This document shows, piece after piece, positions 7,234-35,682 of a stretch of DNA of 64,000 bases. Positions within the stretch are counted from its first letter, which is position 1, and every line of letters starts with the position of its first letter. Made by a program: the position numbers and the translations under genes. Source of the DNA: Aquabacterium olei (GTDB taxonomy: Bacteria; Pseudomonadota; Gammaproteobacteria; Burkholderiales; Burkholderiaceae_C). Under the pieces are notes generated by a model, which was not told the origin of the DNA, searched no databases, and was given only the letters and a program-made list of their open reading frames with translations. Where the stretch lies: the NCBI RefSeq assembly GCF_003100395.1, contig NZ_CP029210.1:1054001-1118000 (forward strand). Reading direction: 5' to 3'.

Positions 7234-7236
7234 GGG

Positions 7237-8656: not shown

Positions 8657-8719
8657 TCGGGCACGGCTGCGCGCCCCACAGGCACAATCCGTCTTCCCAG
8701 CCTACTCTGCGACCTCACC

Positions 8720-10858: not shown

Positions 10859-10891
10859 CCCGGACGCCGCATCGCGCCGGGCGGCTTGCCG

Positions 10892-10897
10892 CACAAT
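10892..10897 (+). promoter_or_regulatory. -10-like CACAAT placed for a leaderless oxyR transcript
   Basis: CACAAT ends seven bases before the oxyR ATG, so transcription would start at or next to the start codon. No Shine-Dalgarno sequence fits in the gap and no -35 match is obvious, so this rests on position and on the same arrangement at polA, ybgC and murJ. Confidence 0.35.
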
Positions 10898-10904
10898 CCC
10901 GGTC

Positions 10905-12622: not shown

Positions 12623-13596
12623 GCCTGGGGTACTCCATCAGGGCGCTGCCATGCCCAGGGCTGGTTGCGGCGCAGGGTCAGCACGCGCTCGAAATGGGAG
12701 GGGTCATGCGGCTGCAGCATCGCCGCATCGCGGGGCAGGTGGAAATCCCACAGACGCGAGGTCCAGAAGCGCAGCGCGGCGCCGCGCAGCAGCGCCGGCA
12801 ACAGGGCCTGCTCCTCGTGAGTCAGCGGGCGCACGGCGTCGTAGGCGGCGACGAACGCGGCAGCGCGGGCTTCGTCCAGCGCCCCCGTGGCCAGGTCGAT
12901 GCACCAGTCATTCAGGCACACCGCGATGTCGAAGCCGAAGGTGTCGACACCGGCAAAGTAGAAGTCGAAGAAGCCCGACAGGGTGGGGCCGTCGAACATC
13001 ACGTTGTCGCGGAACAGGTCGGCGTGCACGGGGCCACGGGGCAGGCCGGCGTAGGCGGGGGTGGCCGCCAGCGCCTGCTGGAAGGCCAGTTCGTCGATGA
13101 TCATCGCGGCCTGCTCGGCCGACAGGAAGGGCAACACGACGGGCACGGTCTCTGTCCACCACGGCAGGCCGCGGAGGTTGGGCTGCTGCAGCGGGTAGTC
13201 GGCCCCGGCCAGGTGCATGCGGGCCAGCATGGCGCCCACCTGTGCGCAGTCCGCCACTTGAGGGCTGAGCTGGTTGCGCCCCTTCAGGCGCGTCACCACT
13301 GCGGCTGGCTTGCCCTTGAGCGTGTGCAGGATCTCGCCCTGCGCATCGGCCTGCGGGGCCGGCACCGGGATGCCGCGGGCCGCCAGGTGGTGCATCAGCT
13401 TCAGGTAGAACGGCAGCTGCGCGAAGCTGAGGCGCTCGAACAGGGTCAGCACATAGTCACCGCGGTCGGTGCTGACGAAGTAGTTGGTGTTCTCGATGCC
13501 CGATGCGCAACCCTGCATGGATTGCAGCGTGCCCAGATTCAGGGTGGAGAGCAGGTCCGCCGCTTCCTGCGGGGACACTTCGGTGAAGACGGCCAT
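12619..13596 (-). CDS. thrB: Homoserine kinase (ThrB, aminoglycoside-phosphotransferase-like type II)
   Basis: 325 residues. It phosphorylates homoserine for threonine synthesis. The fold is the APH/choline-kinase type used by Burkholderiales and Pseudomonas, not the GHMP type of enterics: YFVSTDRGDYVLTLFER (glycine-loop/Lys region), HADLFRDN as the catalytic Brenner motif and FFDFYFAG as the metal-binding Asp region. The start ATG 13596 (MAVFTEVSPQEAADLL) matches this family; the longer frame to 13731 is leader sequence. A TACAAT at 13735-13740 (minus strand) may be its -10, giving a ~130-nt leader; nothing else is recognised in 13597-13835. It overlaps the next minus-strand gene by 4 bp. 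Confidence 0.93.
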   Translation of the reverse strand: MAVFTEVSPQEAADLLSTLNLGTLQSMQGCASGIENTNYFVSTDRGDYVLTLFERLSFAQLPFYLKLMHHLAARGIPVPAPQADAQGEILHTLKGKPAAVVTRLKGRNQLSPQVADCAQVGAMLARMHLAGADYPLQQPNLRGLPWWTETVPVVLPFLSAEQAAMIIDELAFQQALAATPAYAGLPRGPVHADLFRDNVMFDGPTLSGFFDFYFAGVDTFGFDIAVCLNDWCIDLATGALDEARAAAFVAAYDAVRPLTHEEQALLPALLRGAALRFWTSRLWDFHLPRDAAMLQPHDPSHFERVLTLRRNQPWAWQRPDGVPQA

Positions 13597-13835
13597 GAGA
13601 CGAGTCGGACAGCGGTGAAAAAGGGGGCCTCGCCCACGCGCGTGACACCCGGGGAACACTTCCCGACCAAATCGGCTGGAAGCCCCGAAAGTTTGCGCGT
13701 TTACCCGGGGGGTGACGGGGAAGTCGAGCACGGGATTGTAGGAGGCCCTATGGCAGACTCGTTCTCACTGTGTTGATGCCCGTGTCGGTCGCGTGCGTCA
13801 TTCGACCCTCTCACCTCTTGCAACCCGTCCAAACC

Positions 13836-19584: not shown

Positions 19585-20064
19585 ATGGACCTCATCCTCT
19601 GGCGCCATGCCCAGGCCATCACCTTGCCGACGGCGGAAGAGGGCGGGGCACAGCACGATCTGGCAGCCGACCTGGCCCGGCCGCTGACGCCCAAGGGGGA
19701 GCGCCAGGCCGAGCGCATGGCCGCCTGGCTGAACCAGCGGCTGAGTGCCGGTGCACGGGTGTTGGTGAGCCCGGCCGTGCGCACCCAGCAGACGGCCCGT
19801 GCGCTGGGGCGCGACTTTCGCACCGTGCCGTCACTCGACCCCCGAGCGACCGTCGATGACCTTCTGGCGGCCGCGCGATGGCCCCAGTCGCGCGACCCGG
19901 TGCTGATCGTGGGCCACCAGCCGGTGCTGGGCTTGCTGGCGGCGCGCCTGTTGGCTGGGCAGGACCAACCCTGGTCGTTGCGCAAGGGCGCCGTGTGGTG
20001 GCTGCGCGGGCGCGAGCGCGACGGCACGCTTCAGGTCACCCTGCTGGCCGTGGAGTCTCCTTAG
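19585..20064 (+). CDS. sixA: Phosphohistidine phosphatase SixA-like
   Basis: 159 residues, histidine phosphatase superfamily. The catalytic RHG-type motif is LWRHAQA near the N-terminus, with [14 protein letters not shown] and the second catalytic His in [12 protein letters not shown]. SixA removes phosphate from phosphohistidine on HPt or PTS proteins. ATG 19585 follows AAGGAG nine bases upstream. It sits 13 bp after ppk1, so it may share the Pho-controlled transcript. The TAG stop overlaps the TAA stop of the convergent M50 gene (bases 20061-20064). The exact substrate here is not known. Confidence 0.85.
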
Positions 20065-22175
20065 AAGCCCCATTCCCGGATGAGGACAGACAGCGCCTGG
20101 CGCACATAGCGCCCCAGGGGCGCTTCCCAGCTGCCGTGGATGGTGAGCTCGCCACGCCATGCGTGCTGGGCCAGCTCGCTGGCCTGCATGTCCTGCGCAG
20201 ACACGCTGAGGACGACGCGGTAGACCGCGCGCTCCGGGATGAAGCGGCCTTCTTTTTCGCGGGTCAGCAGGTGGCCGCCGAGGGGCGCGACCAGTTCCGG
20301 GCGGGGCAGGACACGGGTGGCATCGGCTTCGACCTGGGTGACCCGTGCGGAAACGGCGGACAGGGGCGCATGGGGCAGCAGGAACCGGGCGGTGTCGCCT
20401 ACCTGCACGCGTTGCACGGCTTCTTCGTCCAGCCAGGTTTCCACCAGCCAGGCACTGCCCTGACGCACCAGCAGCCCGATCTTGTCCTTGCGGGTGACCC
20501 ACTGGCCGGTGTGCAGGTCGGGGTCCAGGCGGTAGAAGGTGCCGGCGTAGGGTGCGCGGGGGGCGAGTTGCGCGGCTTCGGTGTCGAGCGCCACCAGCTC
20601 GGCCTGGGCGCCGGCCAGCCGTTCTTCGTTCACCAGCCACTGGCGACGCGTGTCGGCGTCGAAGGCCGAGGCCGAGGCTTGCCAGCGCCATCCTTCCAGC
20701 CGGGCCAGTGCAGCTTGCCGGCGCATGGCCAGGTCGGGCACTTGCAGGCGCAGCAGGGGCTGCTGGGCTGCCACGCGGGCGCCGTCCGCCACGGGCATGG
20801 CTTCGATGCGGGCGCCCGCCGGGGCGAAGACCGGCCAGCTGTCCACCGGGCGCAGCACCGCACTGGCGCCGATCAGGCCCGGCCACGGCAGCAGGCCGAG
20901 CGCGATCACGCCACCGACGATGCCCAGGGTGAACCTGCTACGGCGACGCTGGCGGATGAGCGGCCAGCGCTGTTGCCAGGCTTGCACTTCGCGGTAGAGC
21001 GGCAGCAGGACGAACCAGAGGATTTCGACGGCAAACAGCAGGATGCCGAGCAGCTTGATGGCGACGTGGTACACCAGCACGGCGATGCCGAGGAAGAGCA
21101 CCAGGCGGTAGACCCATGTGAGCCAGGCGAAGGCGATGAGGGCGCGCTCGCGGACCGGGGCAAAGTGCTCCGGCGGGTCTTCTTGCAAGTCAAAGAGCCA
21201 TTCGCGCAGGCGCCAGCGGGCCAGCGCAAAGCTGCGCTCGTGCAGGTTGGGCAGGTCGAGCGCGTCGGACAGGATGAAGTAGCCGTCAAAGCGCATGAAG
21301 GGGCTGGCGTTGATGGCCACGGTGGCCACCCACGAGGTGGTGGCCAGCACGAAGGCCGCAGAGCGCAGGCTGCCATCGGGCAGCAGCGCCCAGGCGAGGG
21401 TGGCCCAGACGGCGATCATCAGTTCGGTGGCAATGCCGGCCGCGGCCACCCGGAGGCGAGCCAGACGGTCGGTGAGGCGCCACGTCTCGTTGGTGTCGGT
21501 GTACGCCACGGGCCACATCACCAGAAACGCCACGCCCATGGTGGGCACGCGGCAACCCAGGCGCTTGGCGGTGAAGGCGTGCCCCAGTTCGTGCAGAAAC
21601 TTCACACCGATCAGCGCCACACCGTAGGCAGCCAGGCCGGACCAGTTGAATGTGTCGACCAGGGAAGCGCTGAAGATGTCCCACTGGCGCACCACCTGAT
21701 ACAGACCGAGAGCGCCTGCGGCGGCGCTGAGGCCGAGGAAGGTGCGCGAGGTGAACCAGGCCGCCACGCCTTGCCAGCGCCCGAGCCACGCATCGGGGTG
21801 CCACAGGGGGACGCGGAAGAACAGGTAGTGGTGCAGCAGCCAGTTCCACCAGGTGCCTTGGCGGGCCTGCCAGAGCTGGGCCATCTGACGTGCCTGGTCG
21901 GCCGAGACACGGCGGGTGAGCTGGTTCTGCGAGATGAACTGGATGACGGCGGTGACATCGTCGGCGTGCATCGGCAGCGTGGTGCGGGCGCTGATGTCGG
22001 CCGCGACCGCGCCGGCGTCGCCCTGACCCCAGCGTTGCAGCACCTCGAAGGTGGGCCAGTCGATGCGGAAGAACTGGTTGCGCACCGGGTCGTGCAGGGT
22101 CCAGCTCGGTTGGCCGTCCGGCAGGGTCGGGCCTGGCAGCAGGTCCAGCTCTTCGCGCAGTTCAGGCCAGGACAT
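20061..22175 (-). CDS. M50 (site-2-type) zinc metalloprotease fused to a HlyD-like adaptor domain
   Basis: 704 residues. Residues ~1-100 are a soluble PqqD-like segment. Next comes a multi-pass membrane protease core with the zinc motif HELGH (195-199) and the third-ligand motif N289-x2-P-x4-D297-G ([10 protein letters not shown]); both are complete, so an active protease is expected. After more membrane helices (~330-445) comes a periplasmic membrane-fusion (HlyD) part: a lipoyl half-motif ([20 protein letters not shown]), a helical hairpin and beta-barrel segments. Comparable M50-HlyD fusions occur in peptide-export loci (YydH-like). It is last in the five-gene operon, 3 bp after the GAF-HlyD gene. 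Inferred role: inner-membrane component that processes and/or gates export of the giant protein. Confidence 0.85.
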
Positions 22176-22178
22176 GGC

Positions 22179-23501
22179 TCAGATCCCGAACGTGGTGCGC
22201 AGGGCGGCCAGGGGGCGACGCAGCACCCAGTAGCCCAGCGGTGTCCAGCCAGCACTGAGCTTGGCCGAGCCTTTGAGGCCCACGCGGTGGTCGGTGGGGG
22301 CGCTCAGGGTGGCGCGCACGCGGTAGGCGTACTGGCCGTCGGGGCGGGCGACGGCGTCGTGGGCCATGTAGCGCACGGTGGCCTGGACGGGTGACAGCGG
22401 GCTGGCATGAAGGTAGAGCTTGACACGGGTGCCTGCAGGCAAGGGCACGGCGTCGGCCAGGGGCACCCAGGCTTCGACCTCGGCGTCGCGCGGGGCGGCG
22501 ATCCGCAGGATGCGCTCGCCCACGCTGACCGGGCGGCCGATCCACTCCGACGGGTCGTCCATGAGCACGACGCCCTCGCGCGGCGCCAGCACGCGGGCGC
22601 GGGTGAGCTGTTCCGCGAGGTACTCGACTTCGGCGCGCTTTTCCTCGATCTTGCCGGTCAGCAAGGCCAGTTGGGTCTTGGAGCGGGCGTCGATGAGGGC
22701 TTGCTGCGAGGTCTGGCGGTATTCGGTCTCGGCGGTGCTGAGGGCCTGGGTGGCCACGTCAAGGCGGCTGCGGATCAGGGCTTCGTCAAAGCCGAACAGC
22801 GGTGTGCCTGTGGTGACGCGCTGGTTGGGCTGGACGTGGAAGGTGTCGATGACGCCTTCCAGCGGGGCGCGGATCACGACCGGTTGCGACGGGACCAGTT
22901 CGCCTGGGGCCAGCACGGAGAGTTGCACAGGGCAGAGCAACACGGCGATGAGGCCAGCGAGTACGCGCACGCGGGTTTGCTGCCACCAGCGGCGACCGGG
23001 CTGTGTCTGCCAGAGTTGGCGCATCCGCTGCCCGGTGCGACGCCAGCCGGTGGCACGCGGGTGCACGAGGGCGTGCCAGGCGTGGGCCCAGGTGGCAGCC
23101 CAGTCCTGCCAGAGCCATTGTTCGTGGACGGTCCATGGGTCGTCACGCAGCAGCACGACGGCGCCCTGCGGCAGGCGCACCCACAGGGCATAGGGGGGCC
23201 ACCATTCGCGCCAGGCGGCGGCGAGGGCGTCGGGCAGGTCTGCCGCGCGCACGACCTGAAGCGGGATGCCGTCAGGCTGCTGGCTGAGGTGCTGGCAGAC
23301 CTGGTTCACCCATTGCACATAGGGGGCGTTGGCCTCAATCTGGACCACGCCCGAAAGCGTGTGCACGCCGTGGTCATCCAGCCAGAGCACCGCCTGCCGG
23401 TAAGGGGTCAGCATGTGGCTGACGTTGACCAGCAGGAAGGCCAGCTCTTGCGCGGTGGTGGCGGCCCGCGCCTGCTGACCCAGGGCCAGCAAGGCGTTCA
23501 C
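22179..23501 (-). CDS. Inner-membrane HlyD-family adaptor with cytoplasmic GAF-like domain
   Basis: About 440 residues. The first ~170 residues are cytoplasmic and GAF-like (ELAFLLVNVSHMLTPYRQAVLWL) and Trp-rich. One membrane helix spans ~178-196 (VRVLAGLIAVLLCPVQLSVL). The periplasmic part has paired lipoyl motifs (VVIRAPLEGVIDTFHVQPNQ and ARVLAPREGVVLMDDP) around a coiled-coil hairpin and a beta-barrel. The start is uncertain: GTG 23501 has no good ribosome-binding site, whereas CTG 23528 follows GGAG with good spacing. The frame is continuous with the giant gene upstream of it except for the TGA at 23544-23546. Inferred partner of the M50-HlyD protein and the TolC-like channel. Confidence 0.8.
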   Translation of the reverse strand: MNALLALGQQARAATTAQELAFLLVNVSHMLTPYRQAVLWLDDHGVHTLSGVVQIEANAPYVQWVNQVCQHLSQQPDGIPLQVVRAADLPDALAAAWREWWPPYALWVRLPQGAVVLLRDDPWTVHEQWLWQDWAATWAHAWHALVHPRATGWRRTGQRMRQLWQTQPGRRWWQQTRVRVLAGLIAVLLCPVQLSVLAPGELVPSQPVVIRAPLEGVIDTFHVQPNQRVTTGTPLFGFDEALIRSRLDVATQALSTAETEYRQTSQQALIDARSKTQLALLTGKIEEKRAEVEYLAEQLTRARVLAPREGVVLMDDPSEWIGRPVSVGERILRIAAPRDAEVEAWVPLADAVPLPAGTRVKLYLHASPLSPVQATVRYMAHDAVARPDGQYAYRVRATLSAPTDHRVGLKGSAKLSAGWTPLGYWVLRRPLAALRTTFGI

Positions 23502-23543
23502 GTCATCCGGGGTGGCGGTGTCTTTCAGGGCGTTTCTCCGTCG

Positions 23544-26500
23544 TCAGGCACCGGGACGGATCAGGCGCGCCGAGGCCACGCCCTGGGCCAGTCGGCTGGG
23601 CGTGGCCTGCCCGCGCTCGACTCCGCCGGGCGAACGCTGGGCGGCGAGCCGGAGTTGCTCGCTGAGTCCATTGCGGCTCTGTGGTTTGACGTCGCGCTCT
23701 TCTCCCACGTGCATGCGGAACATCGTGCTGACTTCACGGCCCTCGGTGTCGCGGGCGATCACCTTGATCTGCAAGACGCCCTTGAAGCCGGCCGGGGCGC
23801 TGACCACGAAGGTGCCGGTGCGTGCGTCGAACTGCACCCAGTCGGGCAGTTTGCGTCCATCGGCTTGCTGCGCGGCAAGCTGGATGGATACGTCCGGCTT
23901 GCTGTGCGCGAACGCGTCGTACGGCATCGAAATGCGCGTGGGCGCGTTGTTTTCGACGAACTGATCCGTGACGCCTCGGAAGACCACGAGGTTGTCTGTC
24001 GGGGCCGGGGTGACGGCCACGCGGAAGCCGGATGGGCTGGTCAGTCGGTCGGCAATGGGCGCGGACGCAGGTCGCTCCAGGACCAGGGGGTCGGCAGACA
24101 AAGGCGTGGGCGCGGGTGCCAGGCGAACCGGCTCCGCGGGCGGCGCATCGACCCGCAGCGGCGGTTGCACGGTGGGCGCTGCCGGGGGCGTGGGCGCGAC
24201 GATCGGGGGCTGGGGGCGATCGTCGTCGGCCGGGCCCATGCTGGGGATGCCGGTGATGCTGTCTTCGAAGCGGGTGCCATTGGAGCCATCGTCGGTGATG
24301 GTGGTCTGGCCGTCGTATGGCGTGCCGCTTTCGTTCGACGCCACGAGGCGCAGGGTTTCAGCCCCTTCGAAGAGGGTGTCGTTGACCAGGGCGATGCGAA
24401 CCAGCAGCGGGCTGCCATCCGTGGGCAGCGGGATGGGCGTGCCAGGGGTATAGGCCTTCCACTCGTTGCCGTCGAAATATTGCAGCGGGCCGCTGGTGTC
24501 CACACCGGTTGTGCCAGACCCGGATTGCAGGTCGAGCGTGACCCGCTGGCCCGGCGCACCATTGACGGTGAACACCACGTAAGGCGAGCTCTCGCTGACG
24601 GTGGGAGACGAGACGGCCAAGGGGCGGTCGTCCGTGATCGACAGGTCGATCGCGTTGTCCGTGTCGGAACCGTCCTGGTTCGCATTGCCCGCGGGGTCTG
24701 TGAACCGGTTACTGGCGACGTGGATGCGGGCCGCGCCGGTCGGGGCGGGCGTGAAGGTGGCGGTGTAGCTGTACGTGCCGTTGCTGTTGGCGACCTTGGC
24801 GCTCAGGGCGCCCAGCGTGCCGCCGGTGACGTCGATGTCACCGAGGACGAAGCTGGTGCCCGGATCTTCGCTGAACGTGAAGGTGACGGTGGCCGTCTCA
24901 CCGGCCTTGAGCGCAGTCTTGTCGGACGTGACCACCACGGTGGGCCGCACCGTGTCGACGCTCATCGACGCGGTGTTGTTGGTGTCCGAGCCGTCGTTGT
25001 TGGCGTTGCCGGCGGCATCGGTGAACTTGGCGTTGTCGACGTGGATGGCGGCCGCTGTGGTGCTGCCGACCGCGGGCGTGAACGTGGCGGTGTAGCTGTA
25101 GGTGCCGTTGCTGTTGGCGACCTTGGTGCTCAAGGTGCCCAGCGTGCCGCCGGTGACGTCAATGTCACCGAGGACAAAGCTCGACCCCGGATCTTCGCTG
25201 AAGGTGAAGGTGACGGTGGCGGCCTCGCCCGCCTTGAGCGCAGTCTTGTCGGAGGTGACCACCACGGTGGGCCACACCGTGTCGACGCTCATCGACGCCG
25301 TGTTGTTGGTGTCCGAGCCGTCGTTGTTGGCGTTGCCTGCCGCGTCGGTGAATTTGGCGCTGTCGACGTGGATGGACGCGGCGATCGTGCTGTTTGCGTC
25401 CGGCGTGAAGGTGGCGGTGTAGGTGGTGCCGCTGCCGCTGAAGTTGCTCAGGGTTCCACCAGTGACGGCGATGTCAGCCGAGGTGAAGCTCGAACCCGGA
25501 TCCTCACTGAACGTGAAAGTGACGGTGGCGGTCTCGCCAGCCTTCAGCGTGGTCTGGTCGGAAGACACGACGATGGTGGGGCGCACCGTGTCGACGGTCA
25601 TCGACGCGGTGTTGTTGGCATCCGAGCCGTCGTCGTTGGCGTTGCCCGCCGCATCGGTGAACTTTGCGCTGTCGACGTGGATCGATGCGGCGGTGGTGCT
25701 GTTTGCGTCCGGCGTGAAGGTCGCGGTGTAGGAGGTGCCGCTGCCGCTGAAGTTGCTCAGGGTTCCACCAGTGACGGCGATGTCAGCCGAGGTGAAGCTC
25801 GAACCCGGATCCTCACTGAACGTGAAAGTGACGGTGGCGGTCTCGCCAGCCTTCAGCGTGGTCTGGTCGGAAGACACGACGATGGTGGGGCGCACCGTGT
25901 CGACGGTCATCGACGCGGTGTTGTTGGCATCCGAGCCGTCGTCGTTGGCGTTGCCCGCCGCATCGGTGAACTTTGCGCTGTCGACGTGGATCGATGCGGC
26001 GGTGGTGCTGTTTGCGTCCGGCGTGAAGGTCGCGGTGTAGGAGGTGCCGCTGCCGCTGAAGTTGCTCAGGGTTCCACCAGTGACGGCGATGTCAGCCGAG
26101 GTGAAGCTCGAACCCGGATCCTCACTGAACGTGAAAGTGACGGTGGCGGTCTCGCCAGCCTTCAGCGTGGTCTGGTCGGAAGACACGACGATGGTGGGGC
26201 GCACCGTGTCGACGGTCATCGACGCGGTGTTGTTGGCATCCGAGCCGTCGTCGTTGGCGTTGCCCGCCGCATCGGTGAACTTCGCGCTGTCGACGTGGAT
26301 GGCGGCCGCTGTGGTGCTGCCGACCGCGGGCGTGAACGTGGCGGTGTAGCTGTAGGTGCCGTTGCTGTTGGCGACCTTGGTGCTCAAGGTGCCCAGCGTG
26401 CCGCCGGTGACGTCAATGTCACCGAGGACAAAGCTCGACCCCGGATCTTCGCTGAAGGTGAAGGTGACGGTGGCGGCCTCGCCCGCCTTGAGCGCAGTCT

Positions 26501-29500
26501 TGTCGGAGGTGACCACCACGGTGGGCCACACCGTGTCGACGCTCATCGACGCCGTGTTGTTGGTGTCCGAGCCGTCGTTGTTGGCGTTGCCTGCCGCGTC
26601 GGTGAATTTGGCGCTGTCGACGTGGATGGACGCGGCGATCGTGCTGTTTGCGTCCGGCGTGAAGGTGGCGGTGTAGGTGGTGCCGCTGCCGCTGAAGTTG
26701 CTCAGGGTTCCACCAGTGACGGCGATGTCAGCCGAGGTGAAGCTCGAACCCGGATCCTCACTGAACGTGAAAGTGACGGTGGCGGTCTCGCCAGCCTTCA
26801 GCGTGGCCTTGTCGGAGGTCACGACGACGGTGGGCCGCACCGTGTCGACGGTCATCGACGCGGTGTTGTTGCTATCCGAGCCGTCGTCGTTGGCATTGCC
26901 TACCGCGTCGGTGAACTTCGTGCTGTCGACGTGGATGGAGGCAGCAGTGGTGCTGCCGACCGCGGGCGTGAACGTGGCGGTGTAGCGGTAGGTGCCGTTG
27001 CTGTTGGCGACCTTGGTGCTCAGGGCGCCCAGCGTGCCGCCGGTGACGTCGATGTCACCGAGGACGAAGCTGGTGCCCGGATCTTCGCTGAACGTGAAGG
27101 TGACGGTGGCGGTCTCGCCCGCCTTCAGCGCAGTCTGGTCGGAAGACACGACGATGGTGGGCCGCACCGTGTCGACGCTCATCGACGCGGTGTTGTTGGC
27201 ATCCGAGCCGTCGTTGTTGGCATTGCCCGCCGCATCGGTGAACTTCGCGCTGTCGACGTGGATGGACGCGGCGATCGTGCTGTTTGCGTCCGGCGTGAAG
27301 GTCGCGGTGTAGGAGGTGCCGCTGCCGCTGAAGTTGCTCAGGGTTCCACCAGTGACGTCGATGTCAGCCGAGGTGAAGCTCGAACCCGGATCCTCACTGA
27401 ACGTGAAAGTGACGGTGGCGGTCTCGCCAGCCTTCAGCGCGGTCTGGTCGGAGGTCACGACGACGGTGGGCCGCACCGTGTCGACGGTCATCGACGCGGT
27501 GTTGTTGCTATCCGAGCCGTCGTCGTTGGCGTTGCCTGCCGCATCGGTGAATTTGGCGCTGTCGACGTGGATGGAGGCGGCGATCGTGCTGTTTGCGCCC
27601 GGCGTGAAGGTCGCGGTGTAGGAGGTGCCGCTGCCGTTGAAGTCGCTCAGGGTTCCACCGGTGACGATGAGATCATCGACGTTGAAATCGGTGGCGGCTT
27701 CGCTCAGGGTGAAAGTAACGGTGGCCGTCTCGCCCGCCTTCAGCGCGGTCTTATCGGACGACACCGCGATGGTGGGGGGCAGATCTGCCGTCGTGATGGT
27801 GATGGCCAGTGTCGCGGTGGCGCGGCTGCCATCGGCATCTTCGATGGTGTAGACAAAGGTGTCCGTCGACAGCCCGCTGACGGAGCCAGACGTGTACGTG
27901 TAGGTGCCATCCGCCTTGAGCGTCAGCTTCCCATGGAGACCCTGGATCTGGCTACCTACTCCCGTGATCACTTCCGATGTCGTGTCGGCGCCAGCAGCGC
28001 GAACGCCCACCACACCGCCTGCGGGTGACGTGGCCTTGGCGCCATCGGCACCCCACACATCGTCGCTTCCATCCAGCAGCACATTGCCCGCAACGCTGCT
28101 TGACTGGCCAACCTCGGCGGTGTTCGCGTAAGCCGTGGGCGCGTCGTCGGCGATGTTCACCGTCACGGTGTTGGTGACCGCATTGCCATAGGTGTCGTGG
28201 GCCACGTAGGCAACCTGATCGCTGGCCGCGCCGAGCACGTGTTGGGCCGAGCGGGTCAAGGTGTAGGTGAACGCGCCGTCGGCATCGATGGACCATGCAC
28301 CCAGGCTGGTGGTGCCTGTTTGCGCTTTGACCGTCTGATTCAAGCCGAGCGTCAAGGTCCCGTTGTACACCTCGCTGTCAGCGCTGGCGTTGCTGCCCCC
28401 ACTGAGGCCGGCTTCCGAGACCGACGCGATGGTGTTCGTCGGCACGTTGATGGCGAAACCATCGCTGTCGTAGGCTGACTGGCTGTCCTTGCTGAAGATG
28501 GTCAGGTAGTCCGTGCCGCTGAAGCCGGTGGTGGCGGTGTAGCGCAGTCCTGCCAGCAAGGCATTGATCTCACCCTGCGTGCCCGTGAGGGTGGCGTTGC
28601 CCGTGCTGCCGTCGAACACGAAGCTGCCGCCTGATGCCGTTGTCGACAGGGTGCCGTGGTCCACGTGCAGAACCACCTTGCTCAGATTCCCATCGGGATC
28701 GGCCACTGAAATCGCGTTGGCCCCGGTAAAGACAAAGGGCGTGCCTGCCGTGGCAGTGACCGCCGTGGGCGTGGTGTTTTCCGGTGCGTCGTTGCGGCCG
28801 GTGACCGTGACCGTCAAGGTCGCCGTCGAGAAGGCACCCCAGGTGTCCTTCATCTGATAGGTGAAGACATCGTCTCGGGTCTCGCCTGAGGCGAGGGCCT
28901 TCACGCTGTTCAGGCCGGTGTCGACGGCATAGCTGTAGGAGCCGTCCGCATTCAGAGTCAGGTTGCCGTAGGTGCCCGCCACCACACCTGTGGCGGTGAT
29001 CGTCGTGTTGCTTGTACCTGCGTTCAAGGCACTGCCCGCGGTGGCCGAGATCACGGTCTTGCCGTCGTTCGCATCCACATCGGTGTCATTGGCCAGCACG
29101 TTGCCCGTGGCGGGCGACTGACCGGTCATGGCGGTGGCCACATCGGCCACGGCGATCGGTGCGTCGTTCGTGCCATTGACGGTGATCACCAATCTGGCCC
29201 ACCCGCTGCCCGCGGGGCTCAGCGTGTTCTTGACCTGGTAGTTGAAGGTCTCCGTCAGTGTCTCTCCGGGCAGCAGCGCCTGCACATTGGTCTGCCCCTG
29301 CCGGATGGTGTAGGTGTACGCGCCCGTGTCACTGATCTGCAGGTCGCCATACAAGCCGTTGACCGTGACGGTCTGGCTCGTGGTCCGGCCGTTGCTGGCG
29401 GTGTCCACCAGGGTGGCCGGATCGCTGGAGCCCGGCAAGGACACGTAGGCCACGTAACCGGAGCCGATCAGCGTGTTGGCAGACGACTCCTTGTCGTTGC

Positions 29501-32381
29501 TCAGCACATTGCCTGTGGCAGTTCCGCCGGGCTGCGACGTGTTGGTGTAGCCCGGCACGTAGGGGCTGTTGCTGACCACACCCGATTCGGTGGCCGTGTT
29601 GCTCTCATTGGTCAGCACCGGATCAGTGGAGCCGCTGCCATACACGGTGATGTAGAGCTTGGCGCTGCTGGTCAGACCGCCCGCATCCTGCATGGTGTAG
29701 TTGAAGACCTCGACGGCAGACTGGCCCCCCGCCAGGTAGGCGTTGTCGGTGGTGGCGGTGTAGGTGTAGCTGCCGTCGCCATTGAGCAGCAGGCTGCCGT
29801 GGGCGCCTTGAATCGTCTGGCTCACGGTGCCGGTGGTGGCGAAGGTGAATGCGCCGCCGGTGGTGCTGGTCAGCTCACGATCCAGCTTGATGCCGGTCAG
29901 CACGCCGCTCGTGTAGGTGAGGGCGCTGACCTTGGTGACGCCGTCGGTCGGAACGCCTGGGCCGCTGACAATCATCCCCACCGCGATGCTGCCGGACAGG
30001 CTGCTCAGATTGCCGATGCTGGTGTAGCCAGTGGTCTGCGCGATGGCCACCGAGGCCGTCTTCATGCCGCTCGTGTTCTCGCTCGCCGCGGTCGAGTTCT
30101 CGAAACCGACCGTCTTGTTGTCTGTGAAGAACGTCGAGAGCTGGGTGATCGTCTTCAGCCCGGTGGCGTCGTAGTACTTTGCCGGTGTGGCGTTGAGGGT
30201 GATGACCCAGTTGTTGGAGTTCGCCGGGCTTTCGACCTTCTGCGTGACATAGATCTGCGTGGTGCCGTCGGCGGCGTACACCGCCCGGTAGTTGCTGCCC
30301 GCCGCGTCGGTGGCCAGGCGCACATAGAGTTTGGCCGTGCCTTTGTCGCTCACTGACGTGAAGCCCGAGTCGCCGGTGAAGGAGAGGGACCCTGTGCCCG
30401 TCACGACGCTGACCGTGCCCCCCGTTGCCCCGCCGTTGACGGAGAGGCCGACGATGCTCTTGCTGTCACCGGTGTCCACGTCCGTGTCGTTGGCCAGCAC
30501 GCCGGTCTTGCCCAGCACCGTGCCGCTTGCCGTGTAGCCGGTCGATGTGAACCCGCTGACCGCGGAGGTGGTGCTTTCCTTCGCCGAGTTGTAGTCGTTC
30601 ACGGCCACGGGCGCATCGTTGCTGCCGTTGATCTGCACGCTCAGCGTGGCGGTGTCGGTGCCGCCCAGGCCGTTGCTGACGGTGTAGCTGAACACGTCCG
30701 TCAGCTTGCCGCCCGGCAACAAGGCGTTGACCGTGGGGTTGGCATCATCCGCGGCATAACTGTAGGTGCCATTCGCGCCGAGCGTCAGCGTGCCGTAGCG
30801 CCCCACCACACTCACTGTGCCGGTGGACGGCACCGATCCTGCCAGGCCGGTGGCGTTGCTGGCCACACGCGTGACCGTCAGGTCCGTGGCAGGGCTGTCG
30901 TTGCTCAGCACATTGCCCGTGGCCGAAATGCCCGGGGTGACCACGGTATCCGGATCCGGATTGGTGTTCAGGCCCTGCTCGAGCGCAGCACCGCCCCCGT
31001 TGGTGGTGCTCGGGGTGCCGGTGGCCACATCGTCGACCGCGTCCGTGGGAGGCGGCGCAGCCACCTTGAGCACTTCGGCATTCAAGGCGGCGTCGACCCG
31101 GTCGGACGACGAGCCCAGTCCCTTGATGTAGGTATGAATCGGGCTGGCAGGGTAGGTGTAGCCGTAGGCGGCGTACAGGGCCTGGTCCACATTGGCGGCG
31201 GTGGTGACCCGGTTGCTGGCGGTGTTGATGAAGCCGTTGAACCACGCCTGATCGACCACCAGCAGGAAGCCCCGGTTGTCCTTGGCATCGCTGTCGCCAT
31301 CCTGGTTGCCATCGGCCTGTGCCGTGGCCAGGTCCACGAAGTCCTTGTCTGTCCAGAAGTAGAAGCCGCGCACCACGCCCTGATCCTTGATCGGGCGGCT
31401 GATCCAGCCGTAGTACTTGCTGCCACCGATGTTGAGGCCGATCGCGGCGACGTCGTTGCCACTGAACAGGTTGCTGTTGGTGTCGTCGCTGACCGTCACC
31501 TGCCCCAGTGAATCGGGGTTGAAGTTGTGGCTGTTCTGTTCCTTCTCGGCGACGGTTTCGCCTGCGTTGCTTTCGATGATGCCGTTGCTGCCGAAGTCAT
31601 TGTCGACGTCGTACACCATCTGATAGGCATTGACGAAGGTGAACTGGGCGAACTCGACGTTCACGTGCTCGCCCATCACTTCGATGGTGCCGCCGTCTTC
31701 CAGGGATGGCACCGGTTGAAGGCTCAGTGAGCCATTCGCCAGCATCACCGCGAAGGCCTCGCCCTCATCGCCGGCGGTGTCCTGCGCGCCGTTGAGGTAG
31801 GCGTCCACGGCGTGGCCGAACTCTTCCGTCAGCACCCGCGTGATGGCGGCCTCGTCCGCACCCGCCTGGACCCAGTCCTGGTTCAGGTAGATCACCGCCT
31901 CGCCTTGCGGGCCATCTGCCGCGAAGGCCCCCTTCGCGCCTTTCAGGGTCGCGTTGCTCAGGAACTCGACATGCAGGCTGAATTCCCCGCTCCGAACGTC
32001 TTGCAGCAGGGTGCTGGCGCGAGCCTGCCAGTCCGCACTCGCCTCGGACTGTCCACCGTGAAAGAGCGCAAACAACGTGTCCTGGGCCTGATCCTGCTGC
32101 AGGAAGTGGCTCAGCAGCTGCTCCGCTGCAAGCTCGGCTGAGCGCACGGAGGGGGTGGCCGGCGCGTCGACCACATGCAGGACGTCGTGCGTGACCCTGG
32201 CTTCCGGCATGGGGGCCGACAGCGTGTCGACCGCCTCGCCCACCGCGGCCCCATCGAACATGAATCGCTGCTCCAGCACCAGTGGCTGGGGGGCTCGACG
32301 CACCAGCCTGCTGGTAGGGGCGGAGGTGGCGGTGCTCAGCGAGGCGTGAGGCACATTCTTGGGGACGTGGCGCTGGGTCAT
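23544..32381 (-). CDS. Giant repeat-rich putative surface adhesin/exported protein
   Basis: About 2945 residues. There is no Sec signal peptide. Near the N-terminus is LVLEQRFMFDGAA (34-46), like the LEPR-x-MFDGA motif at the start of many giant bacterial surface proteins. Residues ~80-220 form a domain with TEEFGHAVD (185-193) and GDEGEAF, reminiscent of a zincin but without a classical HExxH. From ~450 to ~1520 come VCBS/cadherin-like modules (repeated GNVLANDTDVD-type stretches), then ten Ig-like repeats of 102-109 residues. A Pro-rich linker, a putative-Ig module (LPDWVQFDARTGTFVV) and a basic tail (GLSEQLRLAAQRS) follow. No RTX nonapeptides are seen. ATG 32381 has GGAG upstream; GTG 32396 is an alternative. 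It is the third gene of the export operon. Confidence 0.85.
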   Translation of the reverse strand: MTQRHVPKNVPHASLSTATSAPTSRLVRRAPQPLVLEQRFMFDGAAVGEAVDTLSAPMPEARVTHDVLHVVDAPATPSVRSAELAAEQLLSHFLQQDQAQDTLFALFHGGQSEASADWQARASTLLQDVRSGEFSLHVEFLSNATLKGAKGAFAADGPQGEAVIYLNQDWVQAGADEAAITRVLTEEFGHAVDAYLNGAQDTAGDEGEAFAVMLANGSLSLQPVPSLEDGGTIEVMGEHVNVEFAQFTFVNAYQMVYDVDNDFGSNGIIESNAGETVAEKEQNSHNFNPDSLGQVTVSDDTNSNLFSGNDVAAIGLNIGGSKYYGWISRPIKDQGVVRGFYFWTDKDFVDLATAQADGNQDGDSDAKDNRGFLLVVDQAWFNGFINTASNRVTTAANVDQALYAAYGYTYPASPIHTYIKGLGSSSDRVDAALNAEVLKVAAPPPTDAVDDVATGTPSTTNGGGAALEQGLNTNPDPDTVVTPGISATGNVLSNDSPATDLTVTRVASNATGLAGSVPSTGTVSVVGRYGTLTLGANGTYSYAADDANPTVNALLPGGKLTDVFSYTVSNGLGGTDTATLSVQINGSNDAPVAVNDYNSAKESTTSAVSGFTSTGYTASGTVLGKTGVLANDTDVDTGDSKSIVGLSVNGGATGGTVSVVTGTGSLSFTGDSGFTSVSDKGTAKLYVRLATDAAGSNYRAVYAADGTTQIYVTQKVESPANSNNWVITLNATPAKYYDATGLKTITQLSTFFTDNKTVGFENSTAASENTSGMKTASVAIAQTTGYTSIGNLSSLSGSIAVGMIVSGPGVPTDGVTKVSALTYTSGVLTGIKLDRELTSTTGGAFTFATTGTVSQTIQGAHGSLLLNGDGSYTYTATTDNAYLAGGQSAVEVFNYTMQDAGGLTSSAKLYITVYGSGSTDPVLTNESNTATESGVVSNSPYVPGYTNTSQPGGTATGNVLSNDKESSANTLIGSGYVAYVSLPGSSDPATLVDTASNGRTTSQTVTVNGLYGDLQISDTGAYTYTIRQGQTNVQALLPGETLTETFNYQVKNTLSPAGSGWARLVITVNGTNDAPIAVADVATAMTGQSPATGNVLANDTDVDANDGKTVISATAGSALNAGTSNTTITATGVVAGTYGNLTLNADGSYSYAVDTGLNSVKALASGETRDDVFTYQMKDTWGAFSTATLTVTVTGRNDAPENTTPTAVTATAGTPFVFTGANAISVADPDGNLSKVVLHVDHGTLSTTASGGSFVFDGSTGNATLTGTQGEINALLAGLRYTATTGFSGTDYLTIFSKDSQSAYDSDGFAINVPTNTIASVSEAGLSGGSNASADSEVYNGTLTLGLNQTVKAQTGTTSLGAWSIDADGAFTYTLTRSAQHVLGAASDQVAYVAHDTYGNAVTNTVTVNIADDAPTAYANTAEVGQSSSVAGNVLLDGSDDVWGADGAKATSPAGGVVGVRAAGADTTSEVITGVGSQIQGLHGKLTLKADGTYTYTSGSVSGLSTDTFVYTIEDADGSRATATLAITITTADLPPTIAVSSDKTALKAGETATVTFTLSEAATDFNVDDLIVTGGTLSDFNGSGTSYTATFTPGANSTIAASIHVDSAKFTDAAGNANDDGSDSNNTASMTVDTVRPTVVVTSDQTALKAGETATVTFTFSEDPGSSFTSADIDVTGGTLSNFSGSGTSYTATFTPDANSTIAASIHVDSAKFTDAAGNANNDGSDANNTASMSVDTVRPTIVVSSDQTALKAGETATVTFTFSEDPGTSFVLGDIDVTGGTLGALSTKVANSNGTYRYTATFTPAVGSTTAASIHVDSTKFTDAVGNANDDGSDSNNTASMTVDTVRPTVVVTSDKATLKAGETATVTFTFSEDPGSSFTSADIAVTGGTLSNFSGSGTTYTATFTPDANSTIAASIHVDSAKFTDAAGNANNDGSDTNNTASMSVDTVWPTVVVTSDKTALKAGEAATVTFTFSEDPGSSFVLGDIDVTGGTLGTLSTKVANSNGTYSYTATFTPAVGSTTAAAIHVDSAKFTDAAGNANDDGSDANNTASMTVDTVRPTIVVSSDQTTLKAGETATVTFTFSEDPGSSFTSADIAVTGGTLSNFSGSGTSYTATFTPDANSTTAASIHVDSAKFTDAAGNANDDGSDANNTASMTVDTVRPTIVVSSDQTTLKAGETATVTFTFSEDPGSSFTSADIAVTGGTLSNFSGSGTSYTATFTPDANSTTAASIHVDSAKFTDAAGNANDDGSDANNTASMTVDTVRPTIVVSSDQTTLKAGETATVTFTFSEDPGSSFTSADIAVTGGTLSNFSGSGTTYTATFTPDANSTIAASIHVDSAKFTDAAGNANNDGSDTNNTASMSVDTVWPTVVVTSDKTALKAGEAATVTFTFSEDPGSSFVLGDIDVTGGTLGTLSTKVANSNGTYSYTATFTPAVGSTTAAAIHVDNAKFTDAAGNANNDGSDTNNTASMSVDTVRPTVVVTSDKTALKAGETATVTFTFSEDPGTSFVLGDIDVTGGTLGALSAKVANSNGTYSYTATFTPAPTGAARIHVASNRFTDPAGNANQDGSDTDNAIDLSITDDRPLAVSSPTVSESSPYVVFTVNGAPGQRVTLDLQSGSGTTGVDTSGPLQYFDGNEWKAYTPGTPIPLPTDGSPLLVRIALVNDTLFEGAETLRLVASNESGTPYDGQTTITDDGSNGTRFEDSITGIPSMGPADDDRPQPPIVAPTPPAAPTVQPPLRVDAPPAEPVRLAPAPTPLSADPLVLERPASAPIADRLTSPSGFRVAVTPAPTDNLVVFRGVTDQFVENNAPTRISMPYDAFAHSKPDVSIQLAAQQADGRKLPDWVQFDARTGTFVVSAPAGFKGVLQIKVIARDTEGREVSTMFRMHVGEERDVKPQSRNGLSEQLRLAAQRSPGGVERGQATPSRLAQGVASARLIRPGA
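24627..27776 (-). repeat. Ten tandem Ig-like coding repeats (3150 bp) in the giant gene
   Basis: On the minus strand the units run 102, 103, 109, 103, 109, 103, 103, 103, 109 and 106 codons. Two sub-types alternate: a 103-codon form with SFTSADI and a 109-codon form with SFVLGDIDVTGGTLG. Each unit starts PT[IV]VV and contains LKAGETATVTFTFSEDPG. Units 6 (25890-26198) and 7 (25581-25889) look identical at the DNA level. A higher-order duplication of period 1254 bp makes 25034-25552 appear identical to 26288-26806. This is a recombination-prone array. Confidence 0.9.
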
Positions 32382-32425
32382 GGGGCACTCCGGCACCCGC
32401 CGACATCAGGCGAGTGCCATGGACA

Positions 32426-33199
32426 TCATCGGGATTCGGGCGGCGTGATCTGGACGCGACCACTCATCCCGGCAATCAGTTCTTTGAATTGGCCATCAAT
32501 GGCGGCGGCGACCTTGACGGACTGGCTCACGGGGTCGACGCGGGCGCCGATGCGAATGAACTTGGCCGGGTAGGTCTTGCGGGTCTCGTCGATCTGGACC
32601 TGGAAGGTGCCACCCACACGCAACCAGCTCAGCCAGCGCGAGGGCACCAGAAACTCCAGCTCCAGCACGCTGTCGTCCAGGATGTCGAGCAGGGCCTGGC
32701 CGGGCTGCACATACTGCTGCTCGCGCACCTTCTGCTCGGCGACCCGGCCGGAAAACGGGGCGGCGATGGCGCACTTGCCCAGCACCGCCTGGTGGGCGAC
32801 CACCTCGGCCCGGGCCTTTTGTGCGGCGGCCTGGGCCATGTCCAGATCCAGCTTGCCCACCGAGTTCAGTTCAGCCAGACGCTGGTTGGTCTTCAGCGTC
32901 TGCTCGGCCCCTTGCAGCTCGGCGCGGGCCTTCTGCATTTGCGCCTGTTGCAGCGAACAATCGAAGCTCACCAGCAACTGGCCCGCGCGGAAAGTGCCGC
33001 CTTCCGGCATGGGCAGGCGGTTCACCTTGGCGCCGATCTCGGCGGCCACCGTGGTGTACCGGCGAGGCATCAACTGCGCACGGATCTCCTGGCGTTCGAT
33101 GGCCGTGCGTGCCGCGGGTGTCAGTGCAGCCGAGGGCGCGGCCAGCGCCTGGGTTGCCGACCCGAGCCCGATCAGGCCCCACAGCAAGACCGGTCTCAT
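32426..33199 (-). CDS. Periplasmic adaptor subunit (RND/HlyD membrane-fusion type)
   Basis: 257 residues. A signal peptide (cut after about residue 20, ATQALA-APS) is followed by a short membrane-fusion protein: first lipoyl half (VNRLPMPEGGTFRAGQLLVS), a helical hairpin with coiled-coil character (LQQAQMQKARAELQGAEQTL...), second lipoyl half (CAIAAPFSGRVAEQKVREQ) and beta-barrel parts. It has no membrane anchor beyond the signal. Its ATG overlaps the TolC-like stop by 4 bp, and the giant gene begins 44 bp downstream. No RND pump gene is present, so it probably bridges the TolC-like channel to the inner-membrane HlyD proteins of this operon. Confidence 0.85.
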   Translation of the reverse strand: MRPVLLWGLIGLGSATQALAAPSAALTPAARTAIERQEIRAQLMPRRYTTVAAEIGAKVNRLPMPEGGTFRAGQLLVSFDCSLQQAQMQKARAELQGAEQTLKTNQRLAELNSVGKLDLDMAQAAAQKARAEVVAHQAVLGKCAIAAPFSGRVAEQKVREQQYVQPGQALLDILDDSVLELEFLVPSRWLSWLRVGGTFQVQIDETRKTYPAKFIRIGARVDPVSQSVKVAAAIDGQFKELIAGMSGRVQITPPESR

Positions 33200-34743
33200 G
33201 AGCCCACCTTTACGGTCTGGGCCGGCTGCGAGCGCAGAGACATGTCGGTGCCGCGCCTGATCTGCTGGACCAGCTCCGGCAGGGACACGTCGTCCGTGCT
33301 GCCAATCGCCGGTTCGGCGCCGATGCTGGCCAGCAGGCGGCTTTCGGCGGCCTGCACCTGAGCGAGAGCCTGGTAACGGCGCAGGAGGCTCAGGATGGTG
33401 GACACCTCATTGCTCACGCGGTCCAGCTTGCTCTGGGCCAGCGCTTGCTCGCGGTTGCGGGTGTGCTCGGTGATCTTCTGGTCGGTCAGGTAGATGGCGT
33501 CGGCGCGCACGAACTGCTTGTGGGCGTTCACCAGCTGCAGGCGCGCCAGGTGCACCTGCGTGACCACGGCCATCTGGGTGGCCACACGCCGCTGCTCGGC
33601 CAGAGCGACCCCCGCCCGCGCCAGCTTCATCTGCGTATCTGCAGTGAGCAGGTTGAACAGGTTGAAGGACATCTGCACGCCGGCTTCCTGCCAGTCGTTG
33701 TGGACGAGGTAGCGGTCCGAGTCGTACTTGTAGCCGTAGTTCAGGCTGATGTTGGGAAACAGGCGCACCAGGGTGCGACGCACTTCCTCCCGGGCGACGC
33801 GGCCGTTGTAATGCTGCTCGCGCAGGTCGGCGTTCTGCTGCAGAGCCAGCTCTTCCATCGTGCCGATGTCCAGCTCCAGCGTACGAGGCGTGGTCGTCGC
33901 CTGGTCCACATCGGCAATCCGGATCGTGCCGCCGATGGGGGCGTTGATCAGTGTGCCGAGCTCGATGTTGGCCGAGGCCAGTTCCTGGTTGATGGCTTCC
34001 AGCAGGCGCAGGTTCTCCAGCACCTGACGCTGGTAGCGCAGCGCGTCGATGGGGTTGCGCAGCCGTTCCGACTCGGCCTTGCGGGAATCGTCCAGGGCCT
34101 CCTCGGCCATCGTGATGGTGCGGGCCACGTCATCGCGCAGCTTCTGGGCGCTGGCGGCGCGCCAGTAGGCGGTGCGCACGTCCTGCATCAGCACATGCAT
34201 GGCCTTGCGGCGTCGCTCACCCGCAATCAGCACCCGGTCTGCTTGCTGGTGGGCTGCCACGCGGCCCAGGCCATAGTCGAGCAGACTCCAGCTCACCGTC
34301 AGGTCGCTCAGGGCATGGGTGCGCTCCTGAGAGATGAAGCGTGACGGGGACAGGTCGCCGTTTTCCGCGTTGCGGCTCTGGCTGATGCGGTCGTTGTTGC
34401 GCCAGCCATAGCCGGCTTGCGCCACCAGCTTGGGCAACATGTCCAGCTGGGTGACGTCCAGTTGACGCAGGGCCAGGGCCTCCTCCATCAGCTTGGCGCG
34501 CCGCTCCAGGTTGTACTTGAGTGCACGGGCCTGGGCTTCCTCGAGGGTCAAGGGGCCGCTGAGCGGCTCCACGTCCTGCACCATGGCACTGCGGTCGCTG
34601 ACGTTGACCGGCTGCAGGTCCTGCGCATTCAGCGGCACCGGCCGGATGTTGGCGCACGCGGTCAACATCACCGCGGTGGCGGCAGCGATCAGGGTGCGCA
34701 GGGGCGCGCGGCGAGGCGAGGCGGAATGGGGGGCGTTTGGCAT
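33196..34743 (-). CDS. TolC-family outer-membrane lipoprotein channel
   Basis: 515 residues with a lipoprotein signal ending in LTAC (acylated C30). The body shows the two-fold repeated outer-membrane efflux protein pattern: long amphipathic helices (LEEAQARALKYNLERRAKLMEEALALRQ, VLENLRLLEAINQELASANIELGTLI) separated by beta segments (TVSWSLLDYGLG, ISLNYGYKYDSDRY, GVQMSFNLFNLL). It forms the trimeric outer-membrane exit duct of tripartite exporters. First gene of the minus-strand export operon, with the response regulator gene 157 bp upstream on the same strand. Confidence 0.9.
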   Translation of the reverse strand: MPNAPHSASPRRAPLRTLIAAATAVMLTACANIRPVPLNAQDLQPVNVSDRSAMVQDVEPLSGPLTLEEAQARALKYNLERRAKLMEEALALRQLDVTQLDMLPKLVAQAGYGWRNNDRISQSRNAENGDLSPSRFISQERTHALSDLTVSWSLLDYGLGRVAAHQQADRVLIAGERRRKAMHVLMQDVRTAYWRAASAQKLRDDVARTITMAEEALDDSRKAESERLRNPIDALRYQRQVLENLRLLEAINQELASANIELGTLINAPIGGTIRIADVDQATTTPRTLELDIGTMEELALQQNADLREQHYNGRVAREEVRRTLVRLFPNISLNYGYKYDSDRYLVHNDWQEAGVQMSFNLFNLLTADTQMKLARAGVALAEQRRVATQMAVVTQVHLARLQLVNAHKQFVRADAIYLTDQKITEHTRNREQALAQSKLDRVSNEVSTILSLLRRYQALAQVQAAESRLLASIGAEPAIGSTDDVSLPELVQQIRRGTDMSLRSQPAQTVKVGS

Positions 34744-34900: not shown

Positions 34901-35578
34901 TCAAGGGCGGATGTCGATGTCGTCGTGAAAGCGGTAGCCCGTGCCGCGCAGGGTGCTCACGGGCAGGGCCAGGCCGCAGGTTTCCTCGACCTTGCGGCGC
35001 AGGCGGCGCATCTGGGTGTCCAGGCGGCGCTGGTCATAGTCCAGGTAGTTGCCACCGAGGGCCACCACGATGGCCTCCCGCGTGACGTAGCCCGGGCTGC
35101 TCGCCAGGGCATGCAGCACCGTGTGGTCCTGACCCGACAGTGGGAGGACGGCGCCGCCGGGAGAAATGAGCTGACGCGGTGAGTCGGTCAACACCCAGCG
35201 CGGCTTGGCATCGACGCCCAGTCTTCGCGACAAGGCGGCCACGGTGGCGGCAATCTCCTGCAGATCGGCGGTTTTTGGCAGGTAATGGTCGGCGCCGCCG
35301 GTCAGGCCGTCCACCTTGTCCTGCATGGCCGATCGGGCGGTCAGCACGATGATGCCCAGGCGATGGCCTTCGGCGCGCAGCGACTGGATGAGGTCCAGGC
35401 CATGGCCATCGGGCAGGCCGAGGTCGATGATGGCGATGCTGTGAGTCTGCGGCGAGTAGGTTCGTCGAAAGGCCGCCAGAGACGCGACGGCCGTCACCTC
35501 ATGGCCGACCGAAACGAGGAACTCCGTGAGTTCTTCGCTGAGTACAGGTTCGTCTTCCAGCAAGATGAGGTGTGCCAC
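34901..35578 (-). CDS. OmpR/PhoB-family response regulator
   Basis: 225 residues from GTG 35578 (VAHLILLEDEPVLSEEL); the longer open frame to 35677 runs through the intergenic region. The receiver domain has acidic residues E8-D9, phospho-acceptor D52 (IIDLGLPDGHG), the Thr in IVLTARS and Lys in YLPKT. The C-terminal winged helix ends in VSTLRGTGYRF, typical of OmpR-type DNA-binding domains. It is divergent from the histidine kinase gene and upstream of the export operon on the same strand, with a shared direct-repeat box in both flanking regions. Likely controls the giant-protein operon and possibly itself. Confidence 0.92.
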   Translation of the reverse strand: MAHLILLEDEPVLSEELTEFLVSVGHEVTAVASLAAFRRTYSPQTHSIAIIDLGLPDGHGLDLIQSLRAEGHRLGIIVLTARSAMQDKVDGLTGGADHYLPKTADLQEIAATVAALSRRLGVDAKPRWVLTDSPRQLISPGGAVLPLSGQDHTVLHALASSPGYVTREAIVVALGGNYLDYDQRRLDTQMRRLRRKVEETCGLALPVSTLRGTGYRFHDDIDIRP

Positions 35579-35610
35579 GCCGGAAAGTCTAGGGCAGCGC
35601 ACGCGCACGT

Positions 35611-35628
35611 GGCCGAGCAAATCTGAGC
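35611..35628. promoter_or_regulatory. Candidate response-regulator box between regulator and kinase genes
   Basis: GGCCGAGCAAATCTGAGC matches the box at 34822-34839 in 16 of 18 bases. In the other orientation it reads GCTCAG-N4-GCTCGG, a 10-bp direct repeat. It sits in the 104-bp divergent intergenic region, suggesting autoregulation. Confidence 0.55.
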
Positions 35629-35682
35629 ACGGGCGCGCGGCCACCGCCCGCGGCACCAGGCACGTGCTAAGGTTCACGCGCC

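Follow-up and report, generated by a model that had tools for sequence, protein, structure and literature searches.

In type I secretion, as represented by the HlyBD-TolC and LapBCE systems, a TolC-type channel, HlyD-type adaptors, and a giant repeat cargo come together in one operon, and the ATP-binding cassette (ABC) transporter is the component by which the class is defined. The locus analyzed here, a minus-strand run of five consecutive genes (34743 to 20061) in a window of 64,000 nucleotides from the 4.26-Mb genome of Aquabacterium olei (G000:C1:1054001-1118000), shares the channel, the adaptors, and the giant protein with these systems. It differs from them in lacking an ABC transporter in cis and any conserved one in trans, in encoding three adaptors, one fused to a GAF domain and one to a RiPP recognition element (RRE) and an M50 protease, and in its giant protein, which carries an N-terminal tag and gave no RTX match in general library scans, no search aimed at RTX having been made.

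Other described systems resemble single parts of this locus. LEPR-XLL proteins (NF012209) are giants with a short N-terminal LEPR motif; the window motif ends in FDGA, whereas that of the giants of a sister branch ends in SAD or similar. The available parts of the literature naming this family attach no export machinery to it, and our literature search found no statement on the exit route of these giants. M50 membrane proteases also process the leaders of ribosomally synthesized and post-translationally modified peptides (RiPPs), such as the daptide protease (NF041824) and YydH/LiaK/EpeP, but the window protein is fused to HlyD and neighbors a giant protein rather than a peptide. Unlike lasso-peptide B1 RREs and PqqD, the window RRE is fused to a membrane protease-adaptor, and it shows no detectable sequence match to them. 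Accessory SecA2 systems of Gram-positive bacteria reserve a second SecA for special surface proteins. The sister branch would likewise set aside a second SecA for particular surface proteins, but its SecA-like protein is accompanied by adaptors and an outer channel, and it is absent from the branch to which the window belongs (the window branch).

We give about an even chance to the prediction that the four export-type genes and the giant form a module by which LEPR-tagged giants reach the cell surface with no ABC transporter involved and with SecA as the likely motor. Judged by title or abstract opening, no description of such a module was found in the literature, where coverage was thin for subscription papers and preprints and a prior description is possible.

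Results

Organization and conservation of the module

In order of transcription, the operon encodes an outer-membrane factor of the TolC/OEP type (33196..34743; PF02321, 2e-31) with a lipobox-like start judged by eye in the translation, a soluble periplasmic adaptor or membrane fusion protein (32426..33199; HlyD_3, 4.4e-20; RND_mfp, 126.7 bits vs. a cut-off of 94.9) with a Sec-type start, also judged by eye, the giant repeat protein (23544..32396), a GAF-HlyD protein (22179..23501), and an RRE-M50-HlyD protein (20061..22175), hereafter M50-HlyD. All lie on the minus strand, separated by intergenic gaps of -4, 29, 42, and 3 bases. The GAF-HlyD protein combines a GAF fold (residues 1-150), a membrane helix, and a periplasmic adaptor (residues about 190-420).

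Conservation was assessed in 300 genomes of the order and in a phylum-wide genome sample (72 with and 227 without M50-HlyD), with four M50-positive genomes common to both; because scoring was limited to three candidates per genome, M50-HlyD tallies in these samples are lower bounds. Sampled genomes are designated by G numbers (G000 being the genome of the window) and fetched loci by L numbers. At least 587 stretches in the genome collection encode a relative of the M50-HlyD protein. GAF-HlyD adjoins it in 78 of the 80 named loci kept, and in 70 named loci an open reading frame (ORF) of more than 150 residues that is not an adaptor ends just upstream of GAF-HlyD; OEP was found in 14/82 and the adaptor in 17/82 named loci, most stretches ending before reaching either gene. 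In the order, M50-HlyD was matched with an E value of 1e-30 or lower in 49 of the 300 genomes; a strict group, with E values of 6e-125 or lower, comprises 29 of them, including the genome of the window. Among 25 regions stitched from 23 genomes, again including that of the window, all four export genes are present in 23; the incomplete ones are a second locus of G166, where GAF-HlyD gave no match and the genes for OEP and the adaptor lie 8 kb downstream, and the region of G102, which ends with its contig. The position of the giant varies, being between the adaptor and GAF-HlyD in near relatives and before OEP or after M50 elsewhere. Ten window-branch regions chosen from other families all contain M50-HlyD and a tagged giant, and nine contain the four export genes, no OEP match having been obtained in the region of G399. 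On contigs labeled Akkermansia or Chitinophaga (L011, L031, L032), M50-HlyD is 59-64% identical to that of the window, and these labels look wrong. The module also occurs in the freshwater strain Limnohabitans planktonicus II-D5 (L038).

The giant protein and its N-terminal tag

The cargo candidate comprises 2950 residues (2945 from an in-frame ATG) and matches Big_12 ten times as well as Cadherin_4 and VCBS; the BapA/Bap/LapF adhesin model NF045619 reaches 153.1 bits, under its 180-bit cut-off. Its tag, LEQRFMFDGAA (residues 41-51; 32244..32276), is preceded by RLVRR. Alignment on the motif of 37 giants found by pattern search yielded a basic stretch followed by [AVQSP]LE[PQA]Rx[MLV]FD[GA]A, in which positions L, E, R, F, and D are partly dictated by the search pattern. 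Of the 25 stitched regions, 19 have a LEPR-tagged giant beside the module, and the remaining six are interrupted by contig ends. Among the 20 named loci containing the start of the giant, 17 have the tag, 16 of them in the frame of the giant and one (L021) in a frame just upstream.

A tag profile built from 27 rows was run over the 300 order genomes, counting matches at E 1e-3 or better (G054, at E 0.009, was excluded). It matched 32 genomes, comprising 29/29 strict-module genomes and 3/271 others (G101, G179, and G282), and after removal of 19 genomes (18 row donors and one near twin) it was found in 10/10 strict-module genomes vs. 3/271 others. G179, which is tagged and has no strict module, has a sister-branch M50-HlyD. 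When any M50-HlyD and any LEPR start were considered, LEPR starts occurred in 48/49 genomes with M50-HlyD vs. 3/251 without it in the order (p 8e-51) and in 65/72 vs. 0/227 in the phylum sample (p 3e-58), relatedness being ignored in both tests. The first-pass annotation of this DNA had suggested looking for co-occurrence of M50-HlyD and GAF-HlyD with LEPR-type giants; the four-gene regions and the genome-by-genome counts show a conserved gene set tied to such giants.

Neither NF012209 nor Pfam matched the first 115 residues of the giant, and NF012209 (17-bit threshold) had no match in the whole giant or elsewhere in its genome. The two tag types are nonetheless linked, because NF012209 and the window-type profile coincide on giants in G090, G221, and G231. 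LEPR-XLL starts sit on some very large frames, several of the sampled genomes having frames longer than 10,000 residues. G236 has nine such starts and G028 seven, on open frames of up to 14,056 residues; since these outnumber the modules seen there, reading of the tag in trans fits.

A C-terminal motif, GLSEQLRLAAQR (residues 2910-2921; 23634..23669), is also conserved and may or may not correspond to the uncleaved C-terminal signal of type I cargo. A pattern of the [LF]SxQL type occurs in the last 80 residues of 61/70 and 13/21 giant ORFs (shuffle means 5.5 and 1.4), and a stricter pattern in 36/70 and 13/21 (shuffle means 2.0 and 0.4); both patterns were devised after viewing the sequences, so that the shuffles gauge chance and not independence. 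The set of 70 comes from the named loci, where 72 ORFs included two adaptors (L052, L055) that were removed; it contains some fragments truncated by the end of a locus, and the ORF of L080 is apparently out of frame. Antisense to the repeats of the giant, the window contains an open frame of 1873 residues (22407-28028, plus strand), likely a by-product of GC-rich repeats and no gene.

The M50-HlyD protein

Both protease motifs of the M50-HlyD protein, HELGH (residues 195-199; 21579..21593) and NxxPxxxxDG (residues 289-298; 21282..21311), are intact, as had been noted earlier, and PF02163 matches at 37.6 bits vs. a cut-off of 27.2. The adaptor domain, of the HlyD/MacA type, covers residues about 430-690 (20106..20888). 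HlyD_3 exceeds its cut-off in three window proteins, whereas the type I model TIGR01843 reaches at best 30.2 vs. a cut-off of 208.65. The daptide protease model NF041824 matches residues 61-389 at 142 bits, under its 300-bit cut-off. The protein had been described as a protease-HlyD fusion; both of these parts stand, and to them the predicted structure adds an RRE fold, a leader-binding winged helix, ahead of the M50 domain (residues 2-89; 21909..22172). The PqqD Pfam model is over its cut-off in one of six sister proteins scanned (24.0 vs. 23.4). Because Pfam and PDB-sequence searches of the window branch were blank, the RRE assignment leans on the fold match and the sister proteins.

Search for an ABC transporter

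A panel of eight ABC proteins (E 1e-5) gave no match within 104 kb around the operon, in agreement with the first-pass annotation, which had described a five-gene export-type locus without an ABC transporter in cis. Elsewhere, the genome encodes ten ABC-exporter membrane domains; two of the eight proteins scanned are LssB-type over the cut-off and unlinked to the operon. Near the module, an exporter-size ABC ORF was found in 1/25 stitched regions and clearly in 1/80 named loci; L058 contains a 995-residue ORF with a weak ABC match. Further ABC ORFs occur in eight more regions and five more named loci, nearly all of them short and one MlaF-like. Nearly all loci read are without an ABC transporter in cis.

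For three families, the possibility that a type I ABC transporter encoded elsewhere is the general motor was tested across the 29 module genomes and rejected. LssB exceeded the cut-off in 13, HlyB in eight, and PrtD in eight, at least one being present in 19, whereas in 10/29 none was over the cut-off (26-33 candidates scored per genome); in G090 (closed, 100% complete), G117, and G274, no type I ABC was obtained even at lower scores (E 1e-120, 1e-135, and 1e-112). Because the family present varies and ten genomes have none over the cut-off, no type I ABC family is a fixed partner. The first-pass annotation had held that an ABC ATPase encoded elsewhere and always co-occurring with the operon would overturn its view; none of the three families co-occurs constantly.

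SecA-like ATPases in the sister branch

The sister branch is defined by weaker M50-HlyD matches (110-173 bits in the order sample), and 11 of its loci were fetched. All encode a GAF-HlyD-type protein (Pfam GAF over the cut-off in 4/5 scanned); nine neighboring ORFs that were scanned comprised six adaptors and three OEPs, and the LEPR-XLL giants scanned at L197 and L198 both exceeded the NF012209 cut-off. At all 11 loci, M50 is adjoined by a SecA-like ATPase that is about 650-760 residues long. Three of these proteins match SecA_DEAD at 6e-83 to 6e-100, while two scanned with the SecA model reach 458 and 612 bits vs. a cut-off of 800, and two scanned are also under the SecA2 cut-off. GEGKT is conserved in 11/11, with DEAD in ten and DDAD in one. 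In other families, a SecA-like gene adjoins M50 at 10/14 sister loci. In genomes searched for both M50 and SecA, 21/22 sister M50 places have an adjacent SecA-like place as judged by eye, the unpaired one being in G167.

SecA copy numbers follow the branches. Across 58 genomes, one copy was counted in 22/22 window-branch-only genomes, at least two in 17/17 sister-branch genomes, and one in 17/17 module-free controls; G101 and G282 have one each. The genome of the window has a single SecA. By analogy with the sister branch, the window branch likely uses the housekeeping SecA.

Genes adjacent to the operon

A response regulator (34901..35677, minus strand; Response_reg, 5.7e-18) lies directly upstream of the operon, and a 7TMR-DISM histidine kinase (35683..37566, plus strand) diverges from it; by their adjacency they are possible regulators. 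We dropped this pair as a conserved regulator of the module, kinase matches occurring in 13/82 and regulator matches in 5/82 loci. Further along, the window encodes a PilB/GspE-like ATPase (40463-43045, plus strand) that matches MshEN and a c-di-GMP-binding motif.

Discussion

The explanation that we favor is export powered by SecA, the simplest reading because the sister branch keeps a SecA-like ATPase beside M50. In such a mechanism, the RRE would bind the basic stretch and LExRx[MLV]FDGA as a leader, as the fold and the co-occurrence suggest, and the M50 domain, given its intact motifs, would cut or hold this leader at the inner membrane (EpeP, discussed below, being a precedent for combined cleavage and export). 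The unfolded chain would be pushed through that membrane by SecA, for which the window branch would rely on the housekeeping copy and the sister branch on its dedicated one, and the three HlyD-type parts with the TolC-type lipoprotein, judged by family membership, would form the outward duct. The GAF domain could gate export in response to a cytosolic signal, and docking or plugging of the chain end is a possible role of the C-terminal [LF]SxQL motif. The first-pass annotation had left the energy source undefined; the part of its claim concerning the missing ABC transporter in cis stands, and the sister-branch SecA-like ATPase now provides a concrete candidate motor. It had also regarded export of the giant by Sec as contrary to its proposal. 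The SecA link partly suggests such export, but without a normal signal peptide.

Several observations weigh against SecA-powered export of tagged giants by this module. The window branch lacks a dedicated SecA gene, none being found in the 80 named loci, the 25 stitched regions, or the ten regions from other families, and at four of the 14 sister loci from other families (G458, G553, G309, and G416, in the last of which M50 is short and not a fusion) no SecA-like gene is adjacent. The tag scores poorly as an ordinary Sec signal. It was not found in the frame read for the giants of L016, L046, and L067, and no LEPR match was obtained in 7/72 M50-HlyD genomes of the phylum sample (G301, G303, G343, G355, G371, G416, and G458, the last having a giant with a LEPRLLFSA tag recognized by eye) or in 1/49 of the order sample. 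Conversely, G282, a single contig with no M50-HlyD match, has a giant with LEQRFMFDGAA, and the 40 kb read around it contain no module; this giant, of 2355 residues (frame 19881-26948 of joined L188-L189, G282:C1), may be an orphan cargo or use a different exporter. As for leader recognition and cleavage, PF05402 (PqqD) is over its cut-off in 0/32 window-branch members, a profile of the window-branch RRE had no match among PDB sequences, and among 11 sister M50-HlyD proteins four have no strict HELGH and four no strict NxxPxxxxDG.

The remaining points of this kind concern ABC exporters. In G101, an LssB ABC transporter over the cut-off and HlyD lie upstream of OEP, adaptor, and giant; the contig (L190, G101:C112) reads, in a row from 2533 to 13828, LssB ABC, HlyD, a second OEP, and then OEP, adaptor, and a window-type LEPR giant, inside which the contig stops. 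This is the sole place seen with a full type I set adjoining module genes. L048 has a HlyB-like transporter 110 bases downstream of M50 (597.6 bits, below the cut-off), the second locus of G166 has an ABC exporter at -14 kb, and C-terminal RTX domains, which are typical of type I cargo, are present in a LEPR-XLL giant of Vibrio according to the available part of its description (PMC10868602).

The G101 and L048 neighborhoods, together with the two LssB-type transporters of the A. olei genome and the presence of at least one type I ABC in 19/29 module genomes, would suit a disguised type I system, in which a HlyB/LssB/PrtD-type transporter encoded elsewhere powers export in trans. We consider this quite improbable, given the ten module genomes with no such transporter over the cut-off, three of them blank at E 1e-112 or better, the varying family (LssB 13, HlyB 8, PrtD 8), and the rarity of exporter-size ABC ORFs near the module. 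The scarcity of ABC exporters beside the module and the single SecA of all 22 window-branch-only genomes could also mean that neither drives export: M50-HlyD, with its multi-pass core fused to an adaptor, would then be the inner-membrane gate, one of the roles that the first-pass annotation had inferred for it, with proton-motive force or folding outside the cell as the drive and the sister SecA as a branch-specific addition. A combined cleaving and exporting M50 protease has precedent, because EpeP, in the available part of its report, is thought to do both, its deletion not fully abolishing production (PMC10885120). Such a gate is nevertheless unlikely in our judgment, as the sister branch has the parts of the window branch plus a SecA-type ATPase next to M50. 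Moreover, to our knowledge no site-2 protease is a protein channel former.

It is also conceivable, if very unlikely, that the giant exits elsewhere and that the GAF domain and the protease set whether it stays on the cell, as in LapD/LapG-like retention, processing, and release. The GAF fold and the intact protease motifs are compatible with this, and LapG-type release of giant adhesins is known (PMC9430717, available in part). The module, however, includes a complete outer duct of an outer-membrane factor and three adaptors. In the window branch it has no conserved ABC-exporter or SecA-like neighbor, and the RRE precedes the membrane part and hence would be cytosolic.

Returning to SecA-powered export, we rate the architecture as categorically new, with its export role predicted: a type I-like duct without the ABC transporter that defines type I. 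The finding goes beyond the first-pass annotation: the module uses a RiPP-type leader-recognition fold and, in the sister branch, a SecA motor. More tentatively, at somewhat under an even chance, we propose a secretion type of its own, present in about a quarter of the phylum sample, in which the RRE of the protease-adaptor would read a basic and LEPR zip-code, SecA, private or housekeeping depending on the branch, would replace ABC as the drive, and one module would serve several remote giants. That the tag and a fixed set of genes correspond almost one to one makes the exit route of these giants directly testable and supplies a gene set for searches. If the proposal is true, leader-peptide recognition, familiar from small modified peptides, would extend to the export of giant proteins.

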